A stretch of 64,000 nt of DNA from Larkinella terrae (GTDB lineage Bacteria > Bacteroidota > Bacteroidia > Cytophagales > Spirosomataceae): contig NZ_WJXZ01000004.1 of NCBI RefSeq assembly GCF_009668025.1, forward strand, positions 496,001 through 560,000. The letters run 5' to 3'. The translations under genes and the position numbers were made by a program. Numbering within the stretch: position 1 is the first letter of the stretch; every line of letters starts with the position of its first letter. Under the pieces are notes generated by a model. That model worked only from the letters and a program-made list of their open reading frames with translations. It was not told where the DNA came from and did no database searches. Shown piece by piece: positions 4,720-60,027 of the stretch.

Positions 4720-5349
4720 TTACCAGTTCAGTACCTGTTGCGGGCTGTTTTTCCGGAACAGTACGGTTTTTTTTTCGGACAAATAAGACACATTGACTAG
4801 ATTAATCTGATCGTCAAACACTTCCATCATCAGCGATTGCTGCAGCGTACTGCCCTTGACTGGCTCCGTATAGGGGACTTCGATATACATCCAGGTTGCA
4901 TCCACTTCCTGCTCCTTGCCAATATACCGAAACGGTTTGCGCTGTTTTCCGGGATTCGACAGGCTAAAGTGCTTGCGAAGATACCGTTCGATGAGGGGAC
5001 CGTTGGCGTCTTTATCGTTGAGCCGCACGAGCTGGTTGTTGTTTTCTTTGGTCAGCGCTTCTTCAAAATCATCCGTAAAGACCCGGAGACTCACTTCGAA
5101 TGTCTTTTCAGCCGCGTTGTACTGCATCTGCGTAATGCTCGTATGCACCGGATGCGCACCTGTGAAGAACAGGAGTGAGAATAAGCAAAAAATTATTTCG
5201 CGGAGGTGAGCGGAGTTTAACAGAGTTAAGCAAAGTTTATTTTTATTAACTATAACTCTGCTTAACTCTGTTAAACTCCGCTCACCTCCGCGAAATAATC
5301 CCTTATTAAACTCAAAAAACCGCTTTGAATACATCATTGAAGATTGCAA
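4720..5349 (-). CDS. DUF6702-like secreted protein whose N-terminus is interrupted by a palindrome
   Basis: The mature region (from about residue 64, AHPVHTS) looks like the DUF6702 family, small exported Bacteroidota proteins of unknown function commonly found near a peptidase gene. The frame opens with an ATG at 5349, inside the 3' end of rseP. It then reads through a 108-bp near-perfect palindrome (codons about 17-53) before reaching a hydrophobic segment, IIFCLFSLLFFTG, that looks like a signal-peptide core. Removing the palindrome would leave MQSSMMYSKRFFEFNKG joined to that core, a normal-looking signal peptide, so an in-frame insertion is plausible. Alternatively translation starts at a non-ATG codon after the hairpin. 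The gene is reliable; the start is not. Confidence 0.7.
   Translation of the reverse strand: MQSSMMYSKRFFEFNKGLFRGGERSLTELSRVIVNKNKLCLTLLNSAHLREIIFCLFSLLFFTGAHPVHTSITQMQYNAAEKTFEVSLRVFTDDFEEALTKENNNQLVRLNDKDANGPLIERYLRKHFSLSNPGKQRKPFRYIGKEQEVDATWMYIEVPYTEPVKGSTLQQSLMMEVFDDQINLVNVSYLSEKKTVLFRKNSPQQVLNW
5192..5299. repeat. 108-bp long-arm palindrome at the 5' end of the DUF6702 gene
   Basis: Arms of 46 nt at 5192-5237 and 5254-5299 are complementary except for one position, around a 16-nt AT-rich loop. The length is 36 codons exactly and contains no in-frame stop. It starts 12 nt beyond the rseP stop codon, so it could also act as a transcript-end hairpin for rseP, although no T-run follows it on that strand. 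Confidence 0.9.
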
Positions 5350-11575: not shown

Positions 11576-11634
11576 TTAAGAGTTAAGAGTTAAGAGTCAG
11601 ATGCGTCAGCTTACTCTTAACTCTTAACTCTTAA
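11576..11634. repeat. Heptamer-built hairpin between mreB and mreC
   Basis: Perfect 22-bp complementary arms at 11576-11597 and 11613-11634 around a 15-nt loop. Each arm is three tandem copies of the 7-nt word TTAAGAG or its complement. It could act as an mRNA 3' stabiliser or partial terminator inside the operon. Confidence 0.85.
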
Positions 11635-11648
11635 CTTTTAACTCCTGT

Positions 11649-41004: not shown

Positions 41005-41580
41005 ATGGCCCCAGATTGTACTCCGTTTGAACGACAGCTCATTGAAGGATGCCGCCAGGGCAGCCCGCAATACCAGGAGATGTTTTACAAGCATTTCTAC
41101 GGGTTTACCATGGCCATTGCGTTGCGGTATCATCCGGCCCGGCAGGAAGCGGGCAGCGTGGTCAACGACAGTTTCATGAAGGTTTTTGCGCGCATCGATC
41201 GGTATGCATTCGAGGAAACCTTCAAAGGCTGGCTGCGCCGGATTGTGGTCAATACCGCCCTCGATCACTACCGGAAACACGTCAAACACACCCAGACCGT
41301 CGAGTACGATCAGGCTGATAGCCAGTCTGTTGAGGTCGAAAATGCCGTCATCAGCCAGTTGACGGCGGAGGATATTCTGACGTTGCTGCAACACCTCCCT
41401 GATCAGTACCGCATGGTTTTTAACCTCTACGAAATCGAAGGCTATTCGCACGAAGAAATTGCCGGACAGCTCAACTTGTCCGTCAGTTCGTCGCGGGTTT
41501 ACCTGGTTCGGGCGAAAGAAAAGCTGGCCCGTTTGGTAAAAAGTTATTTCCCGAATCACAATGAAAGATTCTATTCATAA
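41005..41580 (+). CDS. ECF-type RNA polymerase sigma factor
   Basis: A 191-aa ECF sigma factor. Region 2 (about 25-95) shows AGSVVNDSFMKVFARIDRY and FKGWLRRIVVNTALDHYRK, which bind core and the -10 region. Region 4 (about 125-178) has LPDQYRMVFNLYEIEGYSHEEIAGQL, then SVSSSRVYLVRAKEKL for -35 recognition. It overlaps the next gene by 20 nt. That gene encodes its probable membrane partner, so the pair is likely translationally coupled and functions in envelope signalling. Confidence 0.95.
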   Translation: MAPDCTPFERQLIEGCRQGSPQYQEMFYKHFYGFTMAIALRYHPARQEAGSVVNDSFMKVFARIDRYAFEETFKGWLRRIVVNTALDHYRKHVKHTQTVEYDQADSQSVEVENAVISQLTAEDILTLLQHLPDQYRMVFNLYEIEGYSHEEIAGQLNLSVSSSRVYLVRAKEKLARLVKSYFPNHNERFYS

Positions 41581-42871
41581 ACGGCTGACCGACCACATTC
41601 GAAAAACCGTGGGGCGCTATGAAGTGCCCTACGAACCCGGCTCGTGGGAAGAATTTCAGCGATTGCAGCGCCGACGCCGACAGCCGCCGGTGGTCTGGTT
41701 CCGGTATGCGCTGGCGGCCTGTTTACTGCTGGGCGTATTGGGCGTACCGCTCTGGCTCTACACGAAAAAGTCGGAGGAAACCCGGCTGGCGGTTCATGGA
41801 TCGAAAACCGGGGTTTCGGACCCAAAAACGATGCTTCCGTCCGTTGAAAACCGGCAACGGACCGGAGCGGTTTTGCCTGAACCTTCCACCCCTAAATCCC
41901 CTGAAGGGGACTTTCTGGATCTGGATGACTCAGCGTCCAAGTCCCCTTCAGGGGATTTAGGGGTTATTGGGCAAAACCGCCCCAAAACCGCTAACTCATC
42001 AATCAAAAACCGCTTTGATCCGCCAAAACCGTCATTTGACGATTTTCGCCGGAACGACATTTCTACCCACCCGCACGCTGAATCCATCATTCAAACCGCT
42101 TCTTTTGCGCTGATCAGTCCACGCGCGATTCGGTTTTCATTACGGCCTGCGCGCGCCCTGAGCCTTCCGTTGTCCATCTGGCAAACCGGACCGGCAGTTG
42201 CGAAAACGGAACCGGCCAAAACCGGTTCGAAGCCCGTTTGGGGGGTTAGTCTGGCTCCGCAGTCGGTGTATGCCGCCGGGAGCTCGCCAACGATGACGGT
42301 GGGAGGGGGAGTATTTTCCGAAATCCCGATCATCAAACGGTTTAGTCTGTCGACCGGTCTGGCAATGGCGCAGCAAAAGTTCGGAACAAAGGAATCCGGG
42401 CAGATTGTAATGACGACCAACATCCCCCATCTGGTTTCGACCGGTATTCGACTTACCTCCATCGATCTGCCGCTCAATATCCGGTTTCGGCCTAAAAAGA
42501 TGTCTGGTATGGGTTTTTATGCCGAAGCGGGCCTGTCATCCATCGCATTTCTGAACGAGCAATATGCCTACACGTATGAACAGACGAAAGCGGAGACGAT
42601 TTTCGTGATGGGAAGCAATGGGCAGGAACAACCCGTCACGCAATATCGTACGTTGCAGCAAACGACAAACCAATCAGAACCGGCTTTTCAGAAAATTTAC
42701 TGGGGCCGGATCATTAACCTGTCGATTGGCGTCGAGCGTCGGCTGGGAACGCAGTTTCGGCTTTCGGCCGAACCGTACGTCAAATACCCCATCGGGCCCT
42801 TCACCCGCGAGAGCCTGATGCTGGGTTCCGGTGGCGTCAGCCTGCGGCTCGGATTTCAGGCCGGTCGCTGA
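41561..42871 (+). CDS. Sigma-factor partner: membrane helix plus beta-barrel-like domain
   Basis: A 436-aa protein in three parts. A cytoplasmic N-terminus of about 45 residues with PYEPGSWEEFQRLQ is the motif common in Cytophagales sigma-factor partners. A single membrane helix follows (about 47-67). A long Pro/Ser-rich linker leads to a C-terminal beta-rich domain (about 220-436) that resembles the outer-membrane beta-barrel (OMP_b-brl) type and ends in SLRLGFQAGR. It may serve as an anti-sigma factor reaching across the envelope; this is inferred from position and topology. Residues about 110-135 are encoded by a palindromic element inserted in the linker. The gene overlaps the sigma gene by 20 nt. 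Confidence 0.75.
   Translation: MKDSIHKRLTDHIRKTVGRYEVPYEPGSWEEFQRLQRRRRQPPVVWFRYALAACLLLGVLGVPLWLYTKKSEETRLAVHGSKTGVSDPKTMLPSVENRQRTGAVLPEPSTPKSPEGDFLDLDDSASKSPSGDLGVIGQNRPKTANSSIKNRFDPPKPSFDDFRRNDISTHPHAESIIQTASFALISPRAIRFSLRPARALSLPLSIWQTGPAVAKTEPAKTGSKPVWGVSLAPQSVYAAGSSPTMTVGGGVFSEIPIIKRFSLSTGLAMAQQKFGTKESGQIVMTTNIPHLVSTGIRLTSIDLPLNIRFRPKKMSGMGFYAEAGLSSIAFLNEQYAYTYEQTKAETIFVMGSNGQEQPVTQYRTLQQTTNQSEPAFQKIYWGRIINLSIGVERRLGTQFRLSAEPYVKYPIGPFTRESLMLGSGGVSLRLGFQAGR
41888..41964. repeat. In-frame palindromic element A inside the sigma-partner gene
   Basis: Perfect 26-nt arms (41888-41913 and 41939-41964) around a 25-nt loop; the part shared with element C is 75 bp. Each arm begins with ACCCCTAAATCCCC and contains a nested CCCCTGAAGGGG. 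It is translated as two similar words, KSPEGDFL and KSPSGDLG. Confidence 0.92.
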
Positions 42872-42893
42872 TGCAGGACGCAATTGATGCATT

Positions 42894-42926
42894 TTGGGCA
42901 GTGTAATTGGATTAATCCTAAATTTG
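42894..42926 (+). promoter_or_regulatory. Candidate promoter and palindrome upstream of the DUF4856 operon
   Basis: TTG (42894-42896) and TAAATTTG (42919-42926) have a 22-nt spacer, slightly long for the family. A perfect 10-bp palindrome GGATTAATCC (42909-42918) lies in the spacer touching the -7 word, a place where a repressor could act. The start codon is 128 nt downstream. Confidence 0.4.
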
Positions 42927-43054
42927 GATTCAATTCTAACAATTTGACAGATAGGATGTTATGACTTTATTTAAAAACATTCTTACTAATAATTTTATAA
43001 TCAGTCTAAATAGTATTTACATTTACGGCTGGAAAACCTTTTTGTCAACCTGTT

Positions 43055-44239
43055 ATGTTCAAATCTCATTTAGTTTCCAGAATTCTTCCTGTTGTTGTAT
43101 TGGCCGCCAGCCTGATCGCCTGTAACAAGGACGATGATGACAACACCATTACCCCGCCCGACAATCTGCGCACGGCGATCGACTATTCCAAACTGACGGA
43201 TACAACGACTTACGCCAGCTATTTTGCGGACATCAATAAAGTGAAAACCGTTGATATGACGCCTGCCAGCACCCAGTTGCTGATGTTCAGAGCGATCAAT
43301 ACCTACAACGGAACCGCCGTTGGAACGGGCGCGACACTGGATTCGACGGTTTTGAAAAATATGTTTGCCAATACCGGCAACGCCTTTACCGATGCGGCTT
43401 TAAACTCATCAGGCGTCAACCTGCGGTCAATCTTTGCATCGTCGCTGCCGACTGCGGAGGCCGAAAAAGAGCGCAAAACCCTGGAATCGGCTTTTGCAGC
43501 CATGGCCCTCACCAGCAAAGCGGTTTCTCAGACGGCGGCAGAAGGCAAAGCGGGCAAACTCACGACCGGAACCAGCAACTACCTGGTCGATGCGAAAGGA
43601 ATTGAATGGGCGCAGATCATCCAGAAATCGATGATTGGCGGTTTGCAGGTCGATTACATCAGCAACGTGCTGCTGAGCGACAAAAACCTGGCGCTGGACA
43701 ATTCGAAAGTGGTTTCGGGTAAAAGTTATACGGCGCTCGAGCACAACTGGGATCAGATTTACGGCCTGTTGACAGCCAACCCGGTGTACGGCGCGAAAGC
43801 AACCGCGACTTCCTCCGGCGAAAGCTTTCTGGGTTCATACCTCTGGGAGTACAATAAAGAAGATTTTCCGAAAATCCACATGGCGTTGCTGAAAGGACGT
43901 GCAGCCATCGTGAACAACGACCCGACGACGCTGAAGGCGCAGGTGGCCATTATCCGTCCCGCGCTGGAAAAGGCGATTGCCGGTGCGGCATTGGGTTACC
44001 TGGGCAAATGGAAAACGAACGCAACGAACGACGCGGCCCGCGCCCACGCCATGGGGGAAGGCTTGGGTTTCATTTATTCGCTGCGCTACGGCAAAGTAAA
44101 CGGCGGGGATGCGACCTTCTCCGACACCATTCTGGCCGGTCTGGTCGGTACAGCTCCGAACGGTTTCTGGGGCCTGACCAACGCCAAAATTGACGCGGCC
44201 GATGCGGCAATTCGTGCCAAATTCAAGATTGCTAACTAG
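43055..44239 (+). CDS. DUF4856 lipoprotein
   Basis: A 394-aa protein with a lipoprotein signal (lipobox around SLIAC, Cys about 23) followed by an Asp-rich stretch and then the DUF4856 region, with YSKLTDTTTYASYFADINKV (about 49-68) and later KGIEWAQIIQKSMIGGLQVD. In Bacteroidota this family is regularly found just before an imelysin gene, as here. A role in iron uptake is suggested by the TonB receptor three genes on. The family's biochemical activity is unknown. A terminator-like hairpin follows the stop by about 110 bp. Confidence 0.85.
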   Translation: MFKSHLVSRILPVVVLAASLIACNKDDDDNTITPPDNLRTAIDYSKLTDTTTYASYFADINKVKTVDMTPASTQLLMFRAINTYNGTAVGTGATLDSTVLKNMFANTGNAFTDAALNSSGVNLRSIFASSLPTAEAEKERKTLESAFAAMALTSKAVSQTAAEGKAGKLTTGTSNYLVDAKGIEWAQIIQKSMIGGLQVDYISNVLLSDKNLALDNSKVVSGKSYTALEHNWDQIYGLLTANPVYGAKATATSSGESFLGSYLWEYNKEDFPKIHMALLKGRAAIVNNDPTTLKAQVAIIRPALEKAIAGAALGYLGKWKTNATNDAARAHAMGEGLGFIYSLRYGKVNGGDATFSDTILAGLVGTAPNGFWGLTNAKIDAADAAIRAKFKIAN

Positions 44240-44240
44240 T

Positions 44241-44316
44241 ATTCAACTTCGCTATTCGTTATTCAATATTCGCTATTCAGTATTTAATTAATAGCGAATA
44301 TTGAATAACGAAGTTA
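44241..44316. repeat. Heptamer-built hairpin after the DUF4856 gene
   Basis: Perfect 20-bp arms at 44258-44277 and 44290-44309 with a 12-nt loop, flanked by a further complementary AACTTCG/CGAAGTT pair interrupted by one extra 7-nt unit. The words are ATTCGCT, ATTCGTT, ATTCAAT, repeated every seven bases. Confidence 0.85.
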
Positions 44317-44350
44317 AAAACCGTACTACTATACTCATTTTTAGAGTCTT

Positions 44351-44388
44351 ACCGAGCGACTTGCCCACATCGCTCGGTTGCTTTTTTT
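44351..44388 (+). terminator. Intrinsic terminator directly before the imelysin start codon
   Basis: Perfect 9-bp stem ACCGAGCGA/TCGCTCGGT with a 10-nt loop, then TGC and seven T. The imelysin ATG lies 5 bases after the T-run. It may end the DUF4856 transcript or act as an attenuator for the following genes. Confidence 0.8.
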
Positions 44389-44393
44389 AACTT

Positions 44394-45554
44394 ATGGTAC
44401 ATTTTAGCTGGAAAACCGTCGCGTTTCTTGCCGCATTCATGGCGCTTATCTGGGCCTGTTCAACCAGTAAGGATACGCCCGACCCAACGCCCGGTCCGGA
44501 TCCCAATCCGTCCAATACCGGTACTGACCGCAAGGTGTTGCTGACGAATATCGCCGATAATATTATACTGCCGAGCTACGCCAACTTCAAAACCAAGTTT
44601 GACCTGATGCTGGCTAAATCGGACGCGTTTGCGGCCAAACCCGATCAGGCTTCCCTGACAGCTTTCCGGCAGGCCTGGGTCGATGCGTACACCGAATGGC
44701 AGAAAGTGGAACTGTTCGACGTGGGTCCGGCGGAATCGAAAACGCTGCGGTATTTTTTCAACATTTATCCAGCTAATGTCACCGGAATTGAGGAAAACAT
44801 CGTTGCTGGCAACGCGTCGCTGGAACTGCCCGCTTCGTATCCGAAACAGGGTTTTCCGGCGCTGGATTACCTGATCAACGGCCTGGCAGCTACCGACGAC
44901 GCCATTCTGCTAAAATACACCACGGCGGCCGATGCGGCCAAACGACTGGCGTATGTAAAGCAGATCATGACCCAGATGAACACGATGTTCACCGCCGTTC
45001 AGACCGAGTGGACTGCTACCTACCGCGACAAGTTTATCAACGCCACCGGCATCGACGTCAGCGGTTCATTGTCGAAATTAGTCAATGGGTATGTGCTTAA
45101 TTATGAGCGGTATATTCGTTCGGGTAAGTTCGGAATTCCGTCGGGCGCGATGGTGAACGGCGTGCCCTCGCCCGAAAAAGTGGAGGCCTTCTACAAAAAA
45201 GATATTTCCCTGATTCTTGCCAAAACCGCCCACCAGGCTTCCATCGATTTCTTCAACGGCAAAGACGTGAAGACGGGCAAAGAAGGACCCGGTTTCAAAA
45301 CGTACCTCACCGCCCTGGGCGCCAAAGACAGCCAGAGCGGCAAGTTGCTGGTGGAGGTGATCAACGCGCAGTTTGATGCATCAAATGCAAAACTGGGCAC
45401 GCTGAAACCCAACCTCTACGACGAAGTCAAGACCAATAACGCTGCGATGGTAGCGGTTTACACCGAAATGCAAAAAGCCGTTCGGATGCTGAAAGTGGAC
45501 ATGACATCGGCGATGAGCATCACGATTACCTACGCGGATAATGACGGTGACTGA
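44394..45554 (+). CDS. Imelysin-family lipoprotein
   Basis: A 386-aa imelysin (ICMP/IrpA-like) protein, a helical family implicated in iron binding or uptake at the cell surface. The lipoprotein signal has its Cys at about residue 22 (ALIWAC). Two homologous helical bundles follow. The first contains RQAWVDAYTEWQKVELFDVG, typical of imelysins, and QGFPALDYLING in place of the GxHxxE motif of classical members. It has no visible ribosome-binding site and starts right behind a terminator hairpin. Its stop codon shares one base with the start of the HTTM gene (TGATG), so the two are coupled. Confidence 0.88.
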   Translation: MVHFSWKTVAFLAAFMALIWACSTSKDTPDPTPGPDPNPSNTGTDRKVLLTNIADNIILPSYANFKTKFDLMLAKSDAFAAKPDQASLTAFRQAWVDAYTEWQKVELFDVGPAESKTLRYFFNIYPANVTGIEENIVAGNASLELPASYPKQGFPALDYLINGLAATDDAILLKYTTAADAAKRLAYVKQIMTQMNTMFTAVQTEWTATYRDKFINATGIDVSGSLSKLVNGYVLNYERYIRSGKFGIPSGAMVNGVPSPEKVEAFYKKDISLILAKTAHQASIDFFNGKDVKTGKEGPGFKTYLTALGAKDSQSGKLLVEVINAQFDASNAKLGTLKPNLYDEVKTNNAAMVAVYTEMQKAVRMLKVDMTSAMSITITYADNDGD

Positions 45555-47011
45555 TGGGTCGGTATTGGCGGACATACACTTCGGCGGCTCCGCTGGCGGT
45601 GTTCAGGATTGCCTTTGGCGTGATGATCTTGGGCAGTATCGTCCGTTTCTGGGCGAAAGGCTGGATTGACGAATTATACATCAAACCCACGTTTTTTTTT
45701 CCGTATTACGGGTTTGAGTTCGTAAAACCAGTTGGCGACTACACGTACCTGCTGTTTGCCGTTTGCGGTTTGAGCGCCTTGCTGGTCGCGCTGGGCTGGT
45801 TCTACCGCCTTGCGTCCGTTCTGCTCTTTCTGAGTTTTACGTACATCGAACTGATGGACAAAAGCACCTACCTGAACCACTATTATTTTGTGAGTCTGGT
45901 GGCGTTTCTTCTCATTTTTCTGCCCGCAAACGGCTATTTTTCAGTGGATGCGTACCGAAACCGGAGCGGTTTTTACGAACAGATTCCCCGCTGGACGATC
46001 GACAGCCTGCGCCTGCTGATGGGTATTGTTTACCTCTACGCCGGGCTGGCCAAACTGAATTCCGACTGGCTGCTCGAAGCGCTCCCGCTCCGGATCTGGC
46101 TGCCGGGCCGCAACGATTTGCCCGGAATCGGGTTTCTGTTCAATTACCGGGAAACCGCCTTTGCTTTCAGTTGGCTGGGCGCACTCTACGACCTGAGCAT
46201 TCCGTTTCTGCTCCTCAACCGGTTTACGCGACCGTTTGCCTACGCTGCGGTGGTGGTTTTCCACGTACTGACGGCGGTTTTGTTTCCGATCGGCATGTTT
46301 CCGTACATCATGATCGTCGCGGCTCTGGTCTTTTTCCCCGCCGGGTTTCACCAGCGACTGCTGGCCCTGCTCGGTGGTTTGCTCAGGCTTCCGGCCACTG
46401 CACTTAGGTTAGCCCCCCACCCCCTGAAGGGGGCTGAACGGATCGGAGTCAGTAAGCCCCCTTCAGGGGGTGGGGGGCTTTATTCGACAGAACAAGCCAC
46501 AAACTCTGGGATTCCCCTGGTGAAAACGCTGATTTACAGCCCTGCGCAATCTCGCTTTTTGTTATCACTTTTCATCATCTTTTTCATCATACAAATCATA
46601 GTCCCCTTTCGGTACACGCTGTACCCCAACGAGTTATTCTGGTCGGAAGAGGGCTACCGGTTTTCGTGGCGGGTGATGCTGATGGAAAAAATGGGGAACG
46701 TGCAGTTCAAGGTGGTGGACGAAACCGGGCAGCAGATGATGGTGAACAATGAAGATCACCTCACCAAATTGCAGGAAAAAATGATGGCGACGCAACCGGA
46801 TATGCTGGTGCAGTTTGCGCATCATTTGCGGGATTATTACACGCAACACGGTTTCCGAAACCCGAAAGTTTTTGCCGATACCTACGTCAGCCTGAACGGC
46901 CGTCTGGGAAAACCGTACATCGACCCGACGGTGAATCTGGCGCAGGAAACCGACTCGTTTAGGCCTAAAAAGTGGATTTTACCCTTTGGAGATGAAATTA
47001 AAGGTTTATAA
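45554..47011 (+). CDS. HTTM-domain membrane protein (gamma-carboxylase-like)
   Basis: A 485-aa inner-membrane protein with an HTTM domain, the helical membrane region shared with vitamin-K-dependent gamma-carboxylase. It has about eight helices from residue 10 to 350. The loop YLYAGLAKLNSDWLLEALPLR (about 160-180) is a typical HTTM stretch. A C-terminal soluble part of about 130 residues (YRFSWRVMLMEKMGN onward) follows. Residues about 286-309 come from a palindromic element in a loop before a late helix. HTTM genes next to imelysin are common in Bacteroidota; what is modified is unknown. The end overlaps the TonB receptor gene by 20 nt. Confidence 0.85.
   Translation: MGRYWRTYTSAAPLAVFRIAFGVMILGSIVRFWAKGWIDELYIKPTFFFPYYGFEFVKPVGDYTYLLFAVCGLSALLVALGWFYRLASVLLFLSFTYIELMDKSTYLNHYYFVSLVAFLLIFLPANGYFSVDAYRNRSGFYEQIPRWTIDSLRLLMGIVYLYAGLAKLNSDWLLEALPLRIWLPGRNDLPGIGFLFNYRETAFAFSWLGALYDLSIPFLLLNRFTRPFAYAAVVVFHVLTAVLFPIGMFPYIMIVAALVFFPAGFHQRLLALLGGLLRLPATALRLAPHPLKGAERIGVSKPPSGGGGLYSTEQATNSGIPLVKTLIYSPAQSRFLLSLFIIFFIIQIIVPFRYTLYPNELFWSEEGYRFSWRVMLMEKMGNVQFKVVDETGQQMMVNNEDHLTKLQEKMMATQPDMLVQFAHHLRDYYTQHGFRNPKVFADTYVSLNGRLGKPYIDPTVNLAQETDSFRPKKWILPFGDEIKGL
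46411..46479. repeat. In-frame palindromic element B inside the HTTM gene
   Basis: Perfect 25-nt arms (46411-46435 and 46455-46479) around a 19-nt loop, 69 bp in all. Arms start AGCCCCCCACCCCC and contain CCCCCTGAAGGGGG. Translated as Pro/Gly-rich loop words PHPLKGAE and KPPSGGGG. Confidence 0.92.
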
Positions 47012-49541
47012 TTCAATTACCCTTAAAATCGTTTGCGACCGCGCTTTTTCCCCTAAATTCCCTACAGGGGACTTTCTAAAGCCGGATGTGGTCGCGCTCA
47101 AGTCCCCTGTAGGGAATTTAGAGGCTTTTTACATTTGCTGTTTTCTGTTCTTTTTCAACTTAATTCCCAGCCTGGCCCAGAACGTGCTGATCGGAACAGT
47201 TCGTGAAAAAACGAGCAACGCGCCGGTGGAAGGGTGCAGTGTGTATCTGAAAGGTTCGCGGAACATTTTCACCACCGATAGCGCGGGGCGGTTTTCCATC
47301 CCGAATCTGAAAACCGGTACGCACCAGCTCCAGTTTTTCTCACTAAATCACCGCTCGTTCAAAACCGAAGTAACCGTCGAGGCCGGAACAACGAACCTGG
47401 AGTTTACGCTGGAAAGCATTGAGAAAACACTCAACGAAGTAACCGTTACGGCCCAGCAGGGGAGTTTCGGCCTGACCCGCCTGCGCGAAGTGGAAGGCAC
47501 GGCCATTTTTGCGGCCAAAAAATCGGAGGTGATTTTGCCCGAAAATCTGGTGGCGAATCTGGCGACCAACAACGCCCGGCAGGTGTATTCCCGCGTCGCC
47601 GGGCTAAACATCTGGGAAAACGACGGGGGCGGTTTGCAGCTCAGCATCGGCGGGCGCGGCCTCGACCCAAACCGGACGTCGAATTTCAACGTCCGGCAAA
47701 ACGGCTACGATATCAGCGCCGACGCCCTGGGCTATCCCGAAAGCTATTACACCCCGCCGACCGAAGCGCTGAAACGCATCAAGATTGTACGCGGAGCGGC
47801 TTCGCTGCAATACGGAACGCAGTTTGGCGGATTGCTCAATTTCGAGATGCGTCAGCCCGTCACCGACCGCACGTTTGAAGTAACTTCGCGGCAAACCGTG
47901 GGTTCGTTCGGTTTTTTCAACTCATTCAACAGCGTCAGCGGAACGGCTAAAAAGCTGAGTTACTACGCTTTTTTCCAGTATAAAAAAGCCGACGGCTGGC
48001 GGCCCAATTCGCATTTCGACAGCAAAACTGCCTATGCCGATATTCATTACCAACTGACCGACGACGCCAAAATTGGGCTGGAAGTGACGCACATGGATTA
48101 CCTGGCCCAGCAGCCGGGCGGTTTGAGCGACGAAATGTTTGTCGCCAACCCGCGGCAGTCGAACCGCGAGCGGAACTGGTTCAAGGTGGACTGGAATCTG
48201 TTCAATGCCCATTACGACTGGAAAGTGAACCACCGGTCGGACTTTAATTTCATTGCGTTCGGCGTGGTGGCTTCGCGGTATTCGCTGGGTTTTCGGCCCA
48301 ACCGGGTGGCCACAGTCGACAACGAAACTTTCGAGCGGGATCTGATTGCCGGTGATTTCCGGAACTACGGTTTTGAAGCGCGGTTTCTGAACCGCTACAA
48401 ACTGGGAAAAAAAGACGGCGTTTTTCTGGTCGGAACGCGGTATTACCACGGGTTTAATCACAGCCAGCAGGGCGTGGGGGCAACCGGCAAAGACCCGGAT
48501 TTTACGTTCGTGGAACCCGATAAGCTGACGTCCTCCGACTACCGGTTTCCGAACCGGAATGTGTCTTTATTTACCGAAAACGTCTTTTTTCTGAGTTCGA
48601 AACTATCGGTAACGCCCGGTATTCGCTACGAACACATCCGCACCACCGCCGACGGTTTTTACGGAAACATCGTCCGCGACCTGGCCGGAAACATCATCAC
48701 CATTACCCAGACGCCGGAGAAACGGGTGAACCCGCGCGGTTTTCTGATTGCCGGTATTGGCGTGAGTTACAAACCCTCATCGCAGTTTGAAGCCTACGGA
48801 AACATTTCCCAGAATTACCGTTCGATTACGTTCAGCGACATGCGGATTTCAAATCCGTCGGCGGTGATTGATCCGAATTTGCAGGACGAACGCGGTTTTT
48901 CGGCAGATGCGGGCGTGCGAGGTGAGAAGAATGGGGTGCTGAGCTACGACCTGAACCTGTTTGCGCTCAACTACGGAAACCGCATTGGCGAGGTGCAGTT
49001 TTACGACGCCAGCGACCGCGTTCTGCGCAAACGCACCAACATCGGCCGGGCGCTGATTGTCGGACTGGAATCCTACGGCGAAGTGGAATTGCTGCGGTTG
49101 CTGCCCGGCCAATCGGATCGCTGGGGCTGGTCGGTTTTCGGGAACCTTGCGTTGACTCGTTCCAGCTACGTGAAAAGCCAGATTCCGGGCGTGCAGGGAA
49201 ATGAGGTCGAGTTTGTTCCGGCGGTCAACCTGAAGTCGGGGATGCGGTGGGGATACCGCAACCTGAAAGCGTCGTTCCAGTTTACGTATCTATCCGATCA
49301 GTATTCCGATGCGACGAATGCCGTCGACGGCGGTTTTTCGGCGGTTATCGGACGGATCCCGTCGTATCACATCATGGATTTTTCGCTTTCCTGGACCTAC
49401 CGCTGGCTGAAGCTGGAAGGCAGCGTCAACAATCTGACGAACGAATTTTACTACACGCGCCGGGCCACCGGCTACCCCGGTCCCGGCATCCTGCCCTCCG
49501 ACGGGCGAGCGTTCTTCCTGACGGTAGGCGTGAAATGGTAA
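46992..49541 (+). CDS. TonB-dependent outer-membrane receptor, FecA-like
   Basis: An 849-aa TonB-dependent receptor, probably for an iron chelate. After the signal core (FYICCFLFFFNLIPSLAQ, residues about 46-63) comes a carboxypeptidase-regulatory-like domain (VLIGTVREKTSNAPVEG), then the plug with KIVRGAASLQYGTQFGGLLNF and a 22-strand barrel ending FFLTVGVKW with a terminal aromatic residue. The start is ATG 46992; the longer frame needs a TTG. Residues about 20-45 are encoded by palindromic element C, placed between the basic start and the signal core. It is the last gene of the DUF4856-imelysin-HTTM group, overlapping the HTTM gene by 20 nt. Confidence 0.92.
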   Translation: MKLKVYNSITLKIVCDRAFSPKFPTGDFLKPDVVALKSPVGNLEAFYICCFLFFFNLIPSLAQNVLIGTVREKTSNAPVEGCSVYLKGSRNIFTTDSAGRFSIPNLKTGTHQLQFFSLNHRSFKTEVTVEAGTTNLEFTLESIEKTLNEVTVTAQQGSFGLTRLREVEGTAIFAAKKSEVILPENLVANLATNNARQVYSRVAGLNIWENDGGGLQLSIGGRGLDPNRTSNFNVRQNGYDISADALGYPESYYTPPTEALKRIKIVRGAASLQYGTQFGGLLNFEMRQPVTDRTFEVTSRQTVGSFGFFNSFNSVSGTAKKLSYYAFFQYKKADGWRPNSHFDSKTAYADIHYQLTDDAKIGLEVTHMDYLAQQPGGLSDEMFVANPRQSNRERNWFKVDWNLFNAHYDWKVNHRSDFNFIAFGVVASRYSLGFRPNRVATVDNETFERDLIAGDFRNYGFEARFLNRYKLGKKDGVFLVGTRYYHGFNHSQQGVGATGKDPDFTFVEPDKLTSSDYRFPNRNVSLFTENVFFLSSKLSVTPGIRYEHIRTTADGFYGNIVRDLAGNIITITQTPEKRVNPRGFLIAGIGVSYKPSSQFEAYGNISQNYRSITFSDMRISNPSAVIDPNLQDERGFSADAGVRGEKNGVLSYDLNLFALNYGNRIGEVQFYDASDRVLRKRTNIGRALIVGLESYGEVELLRLLPGQSDRWGWSVFGNLALTRSSYVKSQIPGVQGNEVEFVPAVNLKSGMRWGYRNLKASFQFTYLSDQYSDATNAVDGGFSAVIGRIPSYHIMDFSLSWTYRWLKLEGSVNNLTNEFYYTRRATGYPGPGILPSDGRAFFLTVGVKW
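47044..47130. repeat. In-frame palindromic element C at the start of the TonB receptor gene, with flanking CTTTTT
   Basis: Arms of 25 nt (47050-47074 and 47100-47124) with one mismatch around a 25-nt loop, 75 bp in all. The loop shares about 15 of 25 positions with that of element A. The 6-bp direct repeat CTTTTT at 47044-47049 and 47125-47130 flanks it exactly and could be a target-site duplication. Confidence 0.88.
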
Positions 49542-59953: not shown

Positions 59954-60027
59954 AAATGAACAATTAACAATGAATAATGAACATCAGTACGTTACCCTGT
60001 TCATTATTCATTGTTAATTGTTCATTT
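59954..60027. terminator. Perfect 30-bp heptamer hairpin between convergent permease 3 and mscS
   Basis: Arms 59954-59983 and 59998-60027 are exactly complementary, with a 14-nt loop. Words are AATGAAC, AATTAAC, AATGAAT, AATGAAC. It probably ends transcripts from both sides and belongs to the same repeat family as those in the permease array. Confidence 0.85.

Follow-up and report, generated by a model that had tools for sequence, protein, structure and literature searches.

Background

In-frame palindromic selfish DNA is familiar chiefly from Rickettsia, along with a handful of other genomes. The Rickettsia palindromic elements (RPE), as an extract of one report puts it, measure about 150 bp and are said to encode a conserved peptide (PMC10969869); in the available part of another, RPE-4 and RPE-6 are classed as REP-like, and some REPs are placed inside open reading frames (PMC3733652). 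The 64,000-nucleotide stretch of the Larkinella terrae genome analyzed here (the window) has three palindromes within the coding sequence of three nearby genes, and the question it raises is whether these are copies of a mobile repeat that the host proteins tolerate, or palindromes of some other origin or use.

Results

Three palindromes in frame in neighboring genes

Element A (41888..41964; elements and tracts are given without strand) is a type-A palindrome whose CCCCTAAATCCCCTGAAGGGGACTT arms are 26 nt long and 100% complementary, with a loop of 25 nt; it occupies an in-frame linker upstream of the outer-membrane beta-barrel domain identified with Pfam. Its host gene (41561..42871, + strand) encodes a protein with a C-terminal OMP_b-brl_2 domain and adjoins an ECF sigma gene (41005-41580). 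Element B (46411..46479) is a type-B palindrome (AGCCCCCCACCCCCTGAAGGGGGCT arms of 25 nt, 100% complementary, loop of 19 nt) that lies in frame with the HTTM domain on one side and the VKGC lumenal domain on the other (Pfam), in the gene of an HTTM/vitamin-K-dependent-carboxylase-like protein (45554..47011, + strand). Element C (47050..47124), a diverged type-A palindrome with 25-nt arms, 96% complementary, and a loop of 25 nt, lies in frame within the n-region of the signal peptide of a TonB-dependent receptor (46992..49541, + strand), whose ATG falls inside the last part of the HTTM gene; L. rosea, L. soli and L. humicola have this ATG too. The gene cluster that holds A and B in linkers and C in a signal peptide looks like an iron uptake locus.

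A second scan recovered the three elements, the perfect arm of C being shorter there, at 22 nt, and both scans confirm the exact placement given in the preliminary description; the arm length of 25 nt that it assigned to each palindrome is right for B and C, and one nucleotide short for A. As it also reported, no stop codon is added, since A, B and C are contained in the open frames P0001, P0002 and P0003. The homology of A and C in the loop, for which about 15 shared positions had been claimed, is upheld by 14 of 25 positions counted by eye and by 75% identity across 80 nt.

A dispersed family with empty sites in the closest relative

The proposal that the three palindromes belong to a dispersed homologous family was borne out genome-wide by 270 matches to the family arms with at most one mismatch (reversed control, 0) and by 22 places with the paired-core pattern (control, 0). 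In a 2.46-Mb sample there are 47 paired copies, located with a copy finder that tolerates little damage to either core; the count leaves out another 20 cores of this sample that are unpaired, by eye mostly mutated copies. The family occupies somewhat more than 100 places in this genome, mostly between genes. Its short form is a palindromic repeat of 63-77 bp in which two inverted GGGG-hairpin arms flank a short variable loop; loops are common to copies at separate places, and one single-linkage group has 16 members. Copies clustered within 6 kb number 16 of 47 against a random mean of 9.2, a borderline excess (p 0.05). The Rfam search gave 9 matches, every one under the gathering score, and the literature searched yielded neither a description of the family nor anything pairing Larkinella with palindromes. 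Literature occurrences of four core sequences were judged unrelated from the listing alone.

Family matches were found in 7 of 9 genomes of the genus and in 39 of 291 of the order Cytophagales, own genome included. Per genome, the RNA-model counts take in both strands and are to be read as "at least"; among the matches listed, again with both strands counted, copy number varies sharply inside Larkinella. L. rosea, the closest relative by nucleotide identity, is without the element at all 13 slots examined and also lacks A, B and C; the earlier suggestion that these are protein insertions tolerated in frame is supported. The non-aligning tract around A (41881..42003), a variable linker, measures 123 nt here and 180 nt in L. 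rosea. That around B (46355..46546) measures 192 nt here and 81 nt there, so that B arrived with about 42 nt beyond the palindrome; the B segment, situated between two Pfam domains, is missing from all 8 aligned HTTM relatives (80 fetched). The tract with C (47014..47162) is missing from L. rosea and L. soli and is represented in L. humicola by a decayed element relative, and the signal peptide of the C host exceeds that of L. rosea by 41 residues (counted by eye). Beyond the window, a clean in-frame case reads MRPRSRFLS plus element here versus MRPRSRFLSCTILLVV in L. rosea. Two further L. rosea stretches compared for synteny gave no alignment with this genome. L. humicola has the element at 6 of the same 13 slots and retains two elements in the same slots and in frame; relatives of the element also lie there at, or close to, the sites of A and C. 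Since the more closely related L. rosea has none at the 13 slots, a selfish repeat requires either that slots were reused or that copies were lost on a large scale, which counts against it.

A long MITE branch and the candidate mover

One branch of the family is contained in a MITE of about 141 bp with GAGACTGTC ends. We found 25 units bounded by such ends (at most 3 mismatches), and 17 of them show an identical 3-bp duplication, TNA in 16 (shuffled control: mean 6.3, maximum 14); the MITE is a derived form of the family with a TNA-type target duplication. A 3-bp duplication of this type is a hallmark of IS5, and all copies could descend from an IS5-like MITE (TIR GAGACTGTCTAAAATT, TNA duplication) moved by a DDE transposase, the short ones being internal remnants. 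In agreement with such an origin, the arms are common to long and short type-B copies, and 7 further sampled copies have one MITE end. However, both ends are present on only 9 of the 47 sampled copies, the short form shows 0 to 2 duplications among these 47 at seven tested end positions, and A, B and C have neither ends nor duplication. An autonomous partner was not found either: the 2.46-Mb sample has no two MITE ends separated by 0.6-4 kb, and a reading by eye of the 81 end matches across the genome gave no pair at a distance of 0.6-3.5 kb; three contig ends break inside MITEs. We regard descent of the whole family from the MITE as unlikely.

The short form would be moved in trans, most likely by a single-strand (HUH, RAYT-type) enzyme, a candidate favored because no target duplication was seen for this form. 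The check for a RAYT-type transposase put forward in the preliminary description succeeded in part: three Y1-transposase genes, RAYT and IS200 pooled, are present in this genome, but other palindromes lie beside each. That these genes adjoin other repeats is a point against a selfish repeat, as is the weak folding of single arms as DNA (z -0.7 to -1.4). Across 28 Y1_Tnp loci of the nine genus genomes, within about 1.5 kb on each side, the family was encountered as a single arm, 1.3 kb off; the hairpin list is empty at 8 of the 28. The two genus genomes without a family match also have single Y1-transposase genes, one of them with a stop, which counts against the selfish-repeat view as well.

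Copies at gene 3' ends

Among the short non-coding copies of the sample, 19 of 29 are at most 20 nt from a gene 3' end, where gene ends and coding sequence come from home-made hexamer-scorer gene calls. This location, which also suits a REPIN-like repeat, suggests that the palindromes might mainly be functional RNA signals under selection, terminators or 3'-end stabilizers, whose overlap with coding sequence is accidental. Within a copy, core changes are matched; the RNA folding of A, B and C is strong (z = -7.5 to -9.3; 0/200 shuffles equally good); a T-run follows C; and one slot holds a terminator-like hairpin in L. rosea and the element in this genome. Nevertheless, A and B are within genes and eight other copies at gene starts, and long MITE copies are seldom near a gene 3' end (1 of 8), so a primary role as RNA signals seems rather improbable.

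Copies read in frame

Given that 66 of 76 distinct copies were not scored as in frame, this is not mainly a coding-sequence family, contrary to the earlier description. Nine copies were in frame by score, and element A, on account of the low score of its linker, was entered manually. Seven of these ten are in signal-peptide n-regions, one is just past the signal peptide, and A and B are in linkers; another copy (L004), scored as not in frame, makes up the C-terminus of an ORF. Coding placement of at most 9 of 47 copies has a probability of 8e-24 if random (2.46-Mb sample). The divisibility by three noted for A, B and C (75, 69 and 75 bp) stands with the ends then chosen and fails as a family rule: with fixed ends, lengths modulo 3 (0/1/2) are distributed 27/35/14 among the 76 copies, and just 3 of the 10 in-frame copies (A, C and C6:1238038) are divisible. 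The frame is preserved by net length, flanks counted.

In the in-frame copies the residues of the element are probably translated. The right arm is read as APFRG or VPFRG in 6 of the 7 n-region copies; with KSPxG as well, the right arm is read in two frames or more, and the loops diverge. In the sample, 6 of 9 coding copies are in n-regions, tracts that account for roughly 2.3% of the coding sequence, a post hoc comparison in which signal peptides were assigned by hydropathy only, with a rule that 41% of genes satisfy. The inserted peptide might accordingly have been exapted, chiefly as an n-region, and the two elements kept in frame in the same slots in L. humicola fit such a use. Palindrome-wide signal-peptide scans, in contrast, showed no clear enrichment over random regional positions (family 6/50, controls 253/2844), and we give a useful peptide little credence; n-region placement would follow from tolerance and from closeness to the preceding stop codon, and the residues would be tolerated rather than useful. 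Tentatively, and with less confidence than we place in tolerance of a selfish repeat, palindromic mobile repeats may be a recurrent source of n-regions in Larkinella, successive unrelated families reusing N-terminal slots and the CCCCTRAAGGGG family being pre-fitted, because one arm frame encodes the basic, glycine-rich KAPFRGLGA.

Agreement between the arms of a copy

Arms match better within a copy than between copies, and in type B, MITE-borne copies included, the outer 14 nt are complementary at 0.526 (shuffled 0.380, maximum 0.457); those of type A show no such excess (0.311 vs 0.309). In-place correction would also yield a better within-copy match, a point against the selfish-repeat view. 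That template switching at quasi-palindromes created the palindromes, or renewed them, on the spot, without transposition, is very unlikely despite the type-B values and some inverted-looking loops between orthologous slots (by eye): local events cannot account for near-identical arms at more than 100 places or for loops shared by distant copies, and could at most underlie arm correction.

Discussion

The existence of the family, its dispersal, the in-frame position of the three elements, their absence from the nearest relative and the derived MITE branch with its TNA-type duplication are established. We consider it probable that A, B and C are copies of a selfish, non-autonomous, REPIN-like repeat tolerated in frame in the manner of RPE. 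One such repeat would have spread across this genome, and patchily across Cytophagales; a minority of copies would have landed in frame where extra residues are harmless, as in signal-peptide n-regions and inter-domain linkers, and survived there.

Like RPE, so far as the portions of the reports at hand describe them, the family has palindromes in frame in unrelated protein genes and also outside genes; it differs in belonging to another phylum, in being shorter than the long RPE (other RPE families are themselves REP-like), in its use of more than one reading frame, in being mostly non-coding with many coding copies in signal peptides, and in that no conserved encoded peptide was found. With REP, BIME and REPIN it shares paired inverted hairpin units, a short spacer, many copies and a frequent position just 3' of genes; however, the GTAG or CGTC foot tag is absent from the arm ends (the GTAG of C is inside the core), and at the 28 Y1 loci, with about 1.5 kb covered on each side, no transposase gene had copies of this family directly beside it. 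The inverted ends and the TNA-type duplication of the long branch recall IS5-type MITEs, from which the short-form window copies are set apart by the lack of both. QMITE of Coxiella, in the part of the description available, are likewise short inverted-repeat elements, some of which lengthen proteins in frame (PMC5896051).

The finding of such inserts in another phylum, where a sister species has the corresponding sites empty, opens insert tolerance and the frequency of slot reuse to direct tests, and the Larkinella case also lets one test the building of signal peptides from mobile DNA. For annotation, it is a warning that N-termini in the group of Larkinella may include repeat-derived residues.

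Structure and hosts of the three palindromes

The inverted repeats claimed by the preliminary description were all recovered by two independent palindrome scans: element A (41888-41964; 26-nt arms, 100% complementary), element B (46411-46479; 25-nt arms, 100% complementary) and element C (47050-47124; 25-nt arms, 96% complementary). A 12-nt core, CCCCTGAAGGGG, is nested within each arm of A and B, the cores of C, TCCCTACAGGGG and CCCCTGTAGGGA, form a compensated pair, and the RNA folding of the three elements is far stronger than that of shuffled sequences. Element A comprises approximately residues 110-135 of its host protein, N-terminal to an OMP_b-brl_2 domain (242-401); element B, residues 286-309 or so of the HTTM protein, between the HTTM (10-262) and VKGC lumenal (333-480) domains; and element C, approximately residues 20-45 of a TonB-dependent receptor, whose carboxypeptidase-regulatory-like domain begins after it, at 67-68. 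The receptor could alternatively start at a GTG in the C loop, in which case translation would still include the right arm. The adjoining genes encode an ECF sigma factor, a DUF4856 protein and an imelysin according to a domain search, and because of these neighbours the cluster looks like one for iron uptake.

A different palindrome (5192-5299, minus strand; 41-nt arms, loop of 26) lies in frame ahead of the hydrophobic N-terminal segment of a protein reading MYSKRFFEFNK[...]FCLFSLLFFTG, and by eye a similar one is present in L. rosea (L284). Three more palindromes of the window, at 44255-44312, 59954-60027 and 11576-11636, are apparently intergenic; a 15-mer from the one at 59954-60027 has 30 copies in the 2.46-Mb sample described below.

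Family size and distribution

A model built from 18 copies gave at least 150 matches in the L. terrae genome, and a looser arm pattern matched 139 + 131 times, its reversed control 0 + 0. In a contiguous sample of 2.46 Mb (contigs C6, 1-1.6 Mb; C17, 1-0.6 Mb; C12, 1-0.26 Mb) 47 paired palindromes were found. Type A has CCCCTAAATCCCCTRAAGGGGACTT arms and loops that often carry GGAC and TCCGGAT; type B has GCCCCCAACCCCCTRAAGGGGGCTT arms and shorter loops, and the layout is common to both. Matches occur in seven of nine Larkinella genomes, L. terrae included (at least 150 in three genomes, 5-15 in four, none in two) and, under filters stricter than those of the genus scan, in 39/291 genomes and 20/116 genera of the order.

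Comparison with related genomes

HTTM proteins found by genome scan (best 80 of 590 confirmed) are 84% identical in L. rosea, 80% in L. humicola and 72% in L. soli, and therefore place the window in Larkinella; nucleotide identity at the locus is 86-92% for L. rosea and mostly 77-82% for L. humicola. The B segment is missing from all eight HTTM relatives aligned, and the extra tract relative to L. rosea measures 111 nt, 69 of palindrome and 42 more. The C site reads MKLKVYSFFIFFVLIGFASLAQ in L. rosea and is comparably short in L. soli; the L. terrae receptor has 41 more residues ahead of SLAQ than that of L. rosea. The A-site linker of L. rosea differs from that of L. terrae and is longer, with no visible palindrome. 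L. rosea thus lacks A, B and C, but in L. humicola the A-site linker contains a palindrome of the same family and the C site a decayed relative.

When the sequences on either side of 14 copies were looked for in both species, the element was missing from L. rosea at all 13 of the 14 sites examined (one by a single flank); in L. humicola an element of the same type occupies 6/13 slots and is missing from 7/13, two of the latter judged from a single flank. The cleanest case is C6:1124617, where L. rosea reads MRPRSRFLSCTILLVVAAFIGRAQ, L. terrae reads MRPRSRFLSG-element-AFLFTFLWTASRAQ, and L. humicola also lacks the element. Several L. rosea slots are occupied by other palindromes or a terminator-like hairpin, and genome-wide this species has just six strand-wise matches, though it is a closer relative than L. 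humicola; its pattern may reflect either loss of copies or second hits on the same slots. At L. rosea loci L276, L277, L279 and L283 the element slots are taken by other palindromes or by tracts that look like repeats (GTACCTACGGCACG, CCACGGACTTTAGTCCGTG, GCTGACAGGGTC), and the one in L279 apparently occupies a signal-peptide slot too.

A long branch that behaves as a MITE

Loops differing at no more than 2 nt link a type-B group of 16 copies; a partly overlapping set of 16, defined by loop pattern, mostly has longer common flanks ending in GAGACTGTCTAAAATT. Twenty-five units, mostly of 131-143 nt, are bounded by such ends, and 17 of them carry an identical 3-bp duplication (TAA 8, TGA 4, TTA 4, TAT 1; shuffled mean 6.3, maximum 14), so this branch behaves as a MITE. 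Both MITE ends accompany 9/47 sampled copies and one end 7/47; the two together were seen in none of the nine in-frame copies of the sample. Seven end positions were tested on the 47 copies, and 0 to 2 of them showed a duplication.

A variant of the long MITE, in which one arm or both contain an additional block resembling GGCCGGGCGGCCGGTGCC, occurs at C6:1475841-1475996, C6:1456743-1456915, C17:206893, L353, L354 and L148:1-100. Contigs C1, C6 and C12 end within it; the assembly therefore breaks at these palindromes. A 65-bp unit at C6:971743-971807 has GTGACTGTCTAAAA at its ends, shows a TTA duplication and lacks the CCCC core; it is either the bare MITE or a deletion form.

Known systems and the transposase

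The Rickettsia palindromic element is the closest working analogue among the systems in the cited accounts (PMC10969869, PMC3733652), from which the Larkinella family differs in having no conserved peptide. REP elements within ORFs are also among those described in PMC3733652; the Larkinella family has no GTAG/CGTC tag and, at the 28 Y1 loci described below, does not directly flank a candidate RAYT gene. PMC6006769 notes that the tnpA-REP genes of Bacteroidetes include a subclass whose flanking structures are atypical.

The suggested search for a RAYT transposase did yield three Y1-transposase genes in L. terrae (L001, L002 and L003), but each has other palindromes of its own beside it, TCGTCGCGTAGCGACGA, CCCACGGTTTAAACCGTGGG and AACCCCAACGGGGTT respectively. 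Among 28 Y1 loci in the nine genus genomes, one of them below the family cut-off, an arm of the element family lies near a single one, 1.3 kb off. A two-mismatch match to the MITE end (C18:74396) was seen about 0.5 kb from L001. Movement of the short form in trans by a putative RAYT-type enzyme is a tentative possibility, favoured by the arrangement as two hairpins, the lack of a duplication and the location close to gene 3' ends. The two arms of a copy match each other better than in shuffles, which suggests that the palindrome is corrected or selected after insertion.

Coding and intergenic copies

Nine of the 47 sampled copies, A, B and C included, are read in frame; among 76 distinct copies, once other contigs were added, nine scored in frame, ten with A. 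The sample has 29 short non-coding copies; 25 of these adjoin a gene 3' end, 19 within 20 nt. A further copy, in L004, forms the end of a 447-codon ORF. Seven copies lie in the n-region of a signal peptide (C6:87661, C6:776571, C6:1124617, C6:1529904, C12:61637, C12:261227 and element C), and in six of them the right arm encodes APFRG or VPFRG; C6:1238038 is placed just after a signal peptide, and A and B are internal. The right arm reads KSPxG(D/N) in A, C and C6:1238038, and KPPSGGGGL in B. Four of the seven L. humicola copies read pass the in-frame scoring: two are within signal peptides, one is followed by a more probable start and one stands at a C-terminus.

Signal-peptide-like tracts make up approximately 2.3% of coding sequence under a generous rule, and 6/9 sampled in-frame copies are so placed (P 1e-8 by chance, post hoc). 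Enrichment over random nearby positions is not clear (6/50 vs 253/2844), and we therefore read the signal-peptide bias as survival of the elements where frame and length are forgiving.
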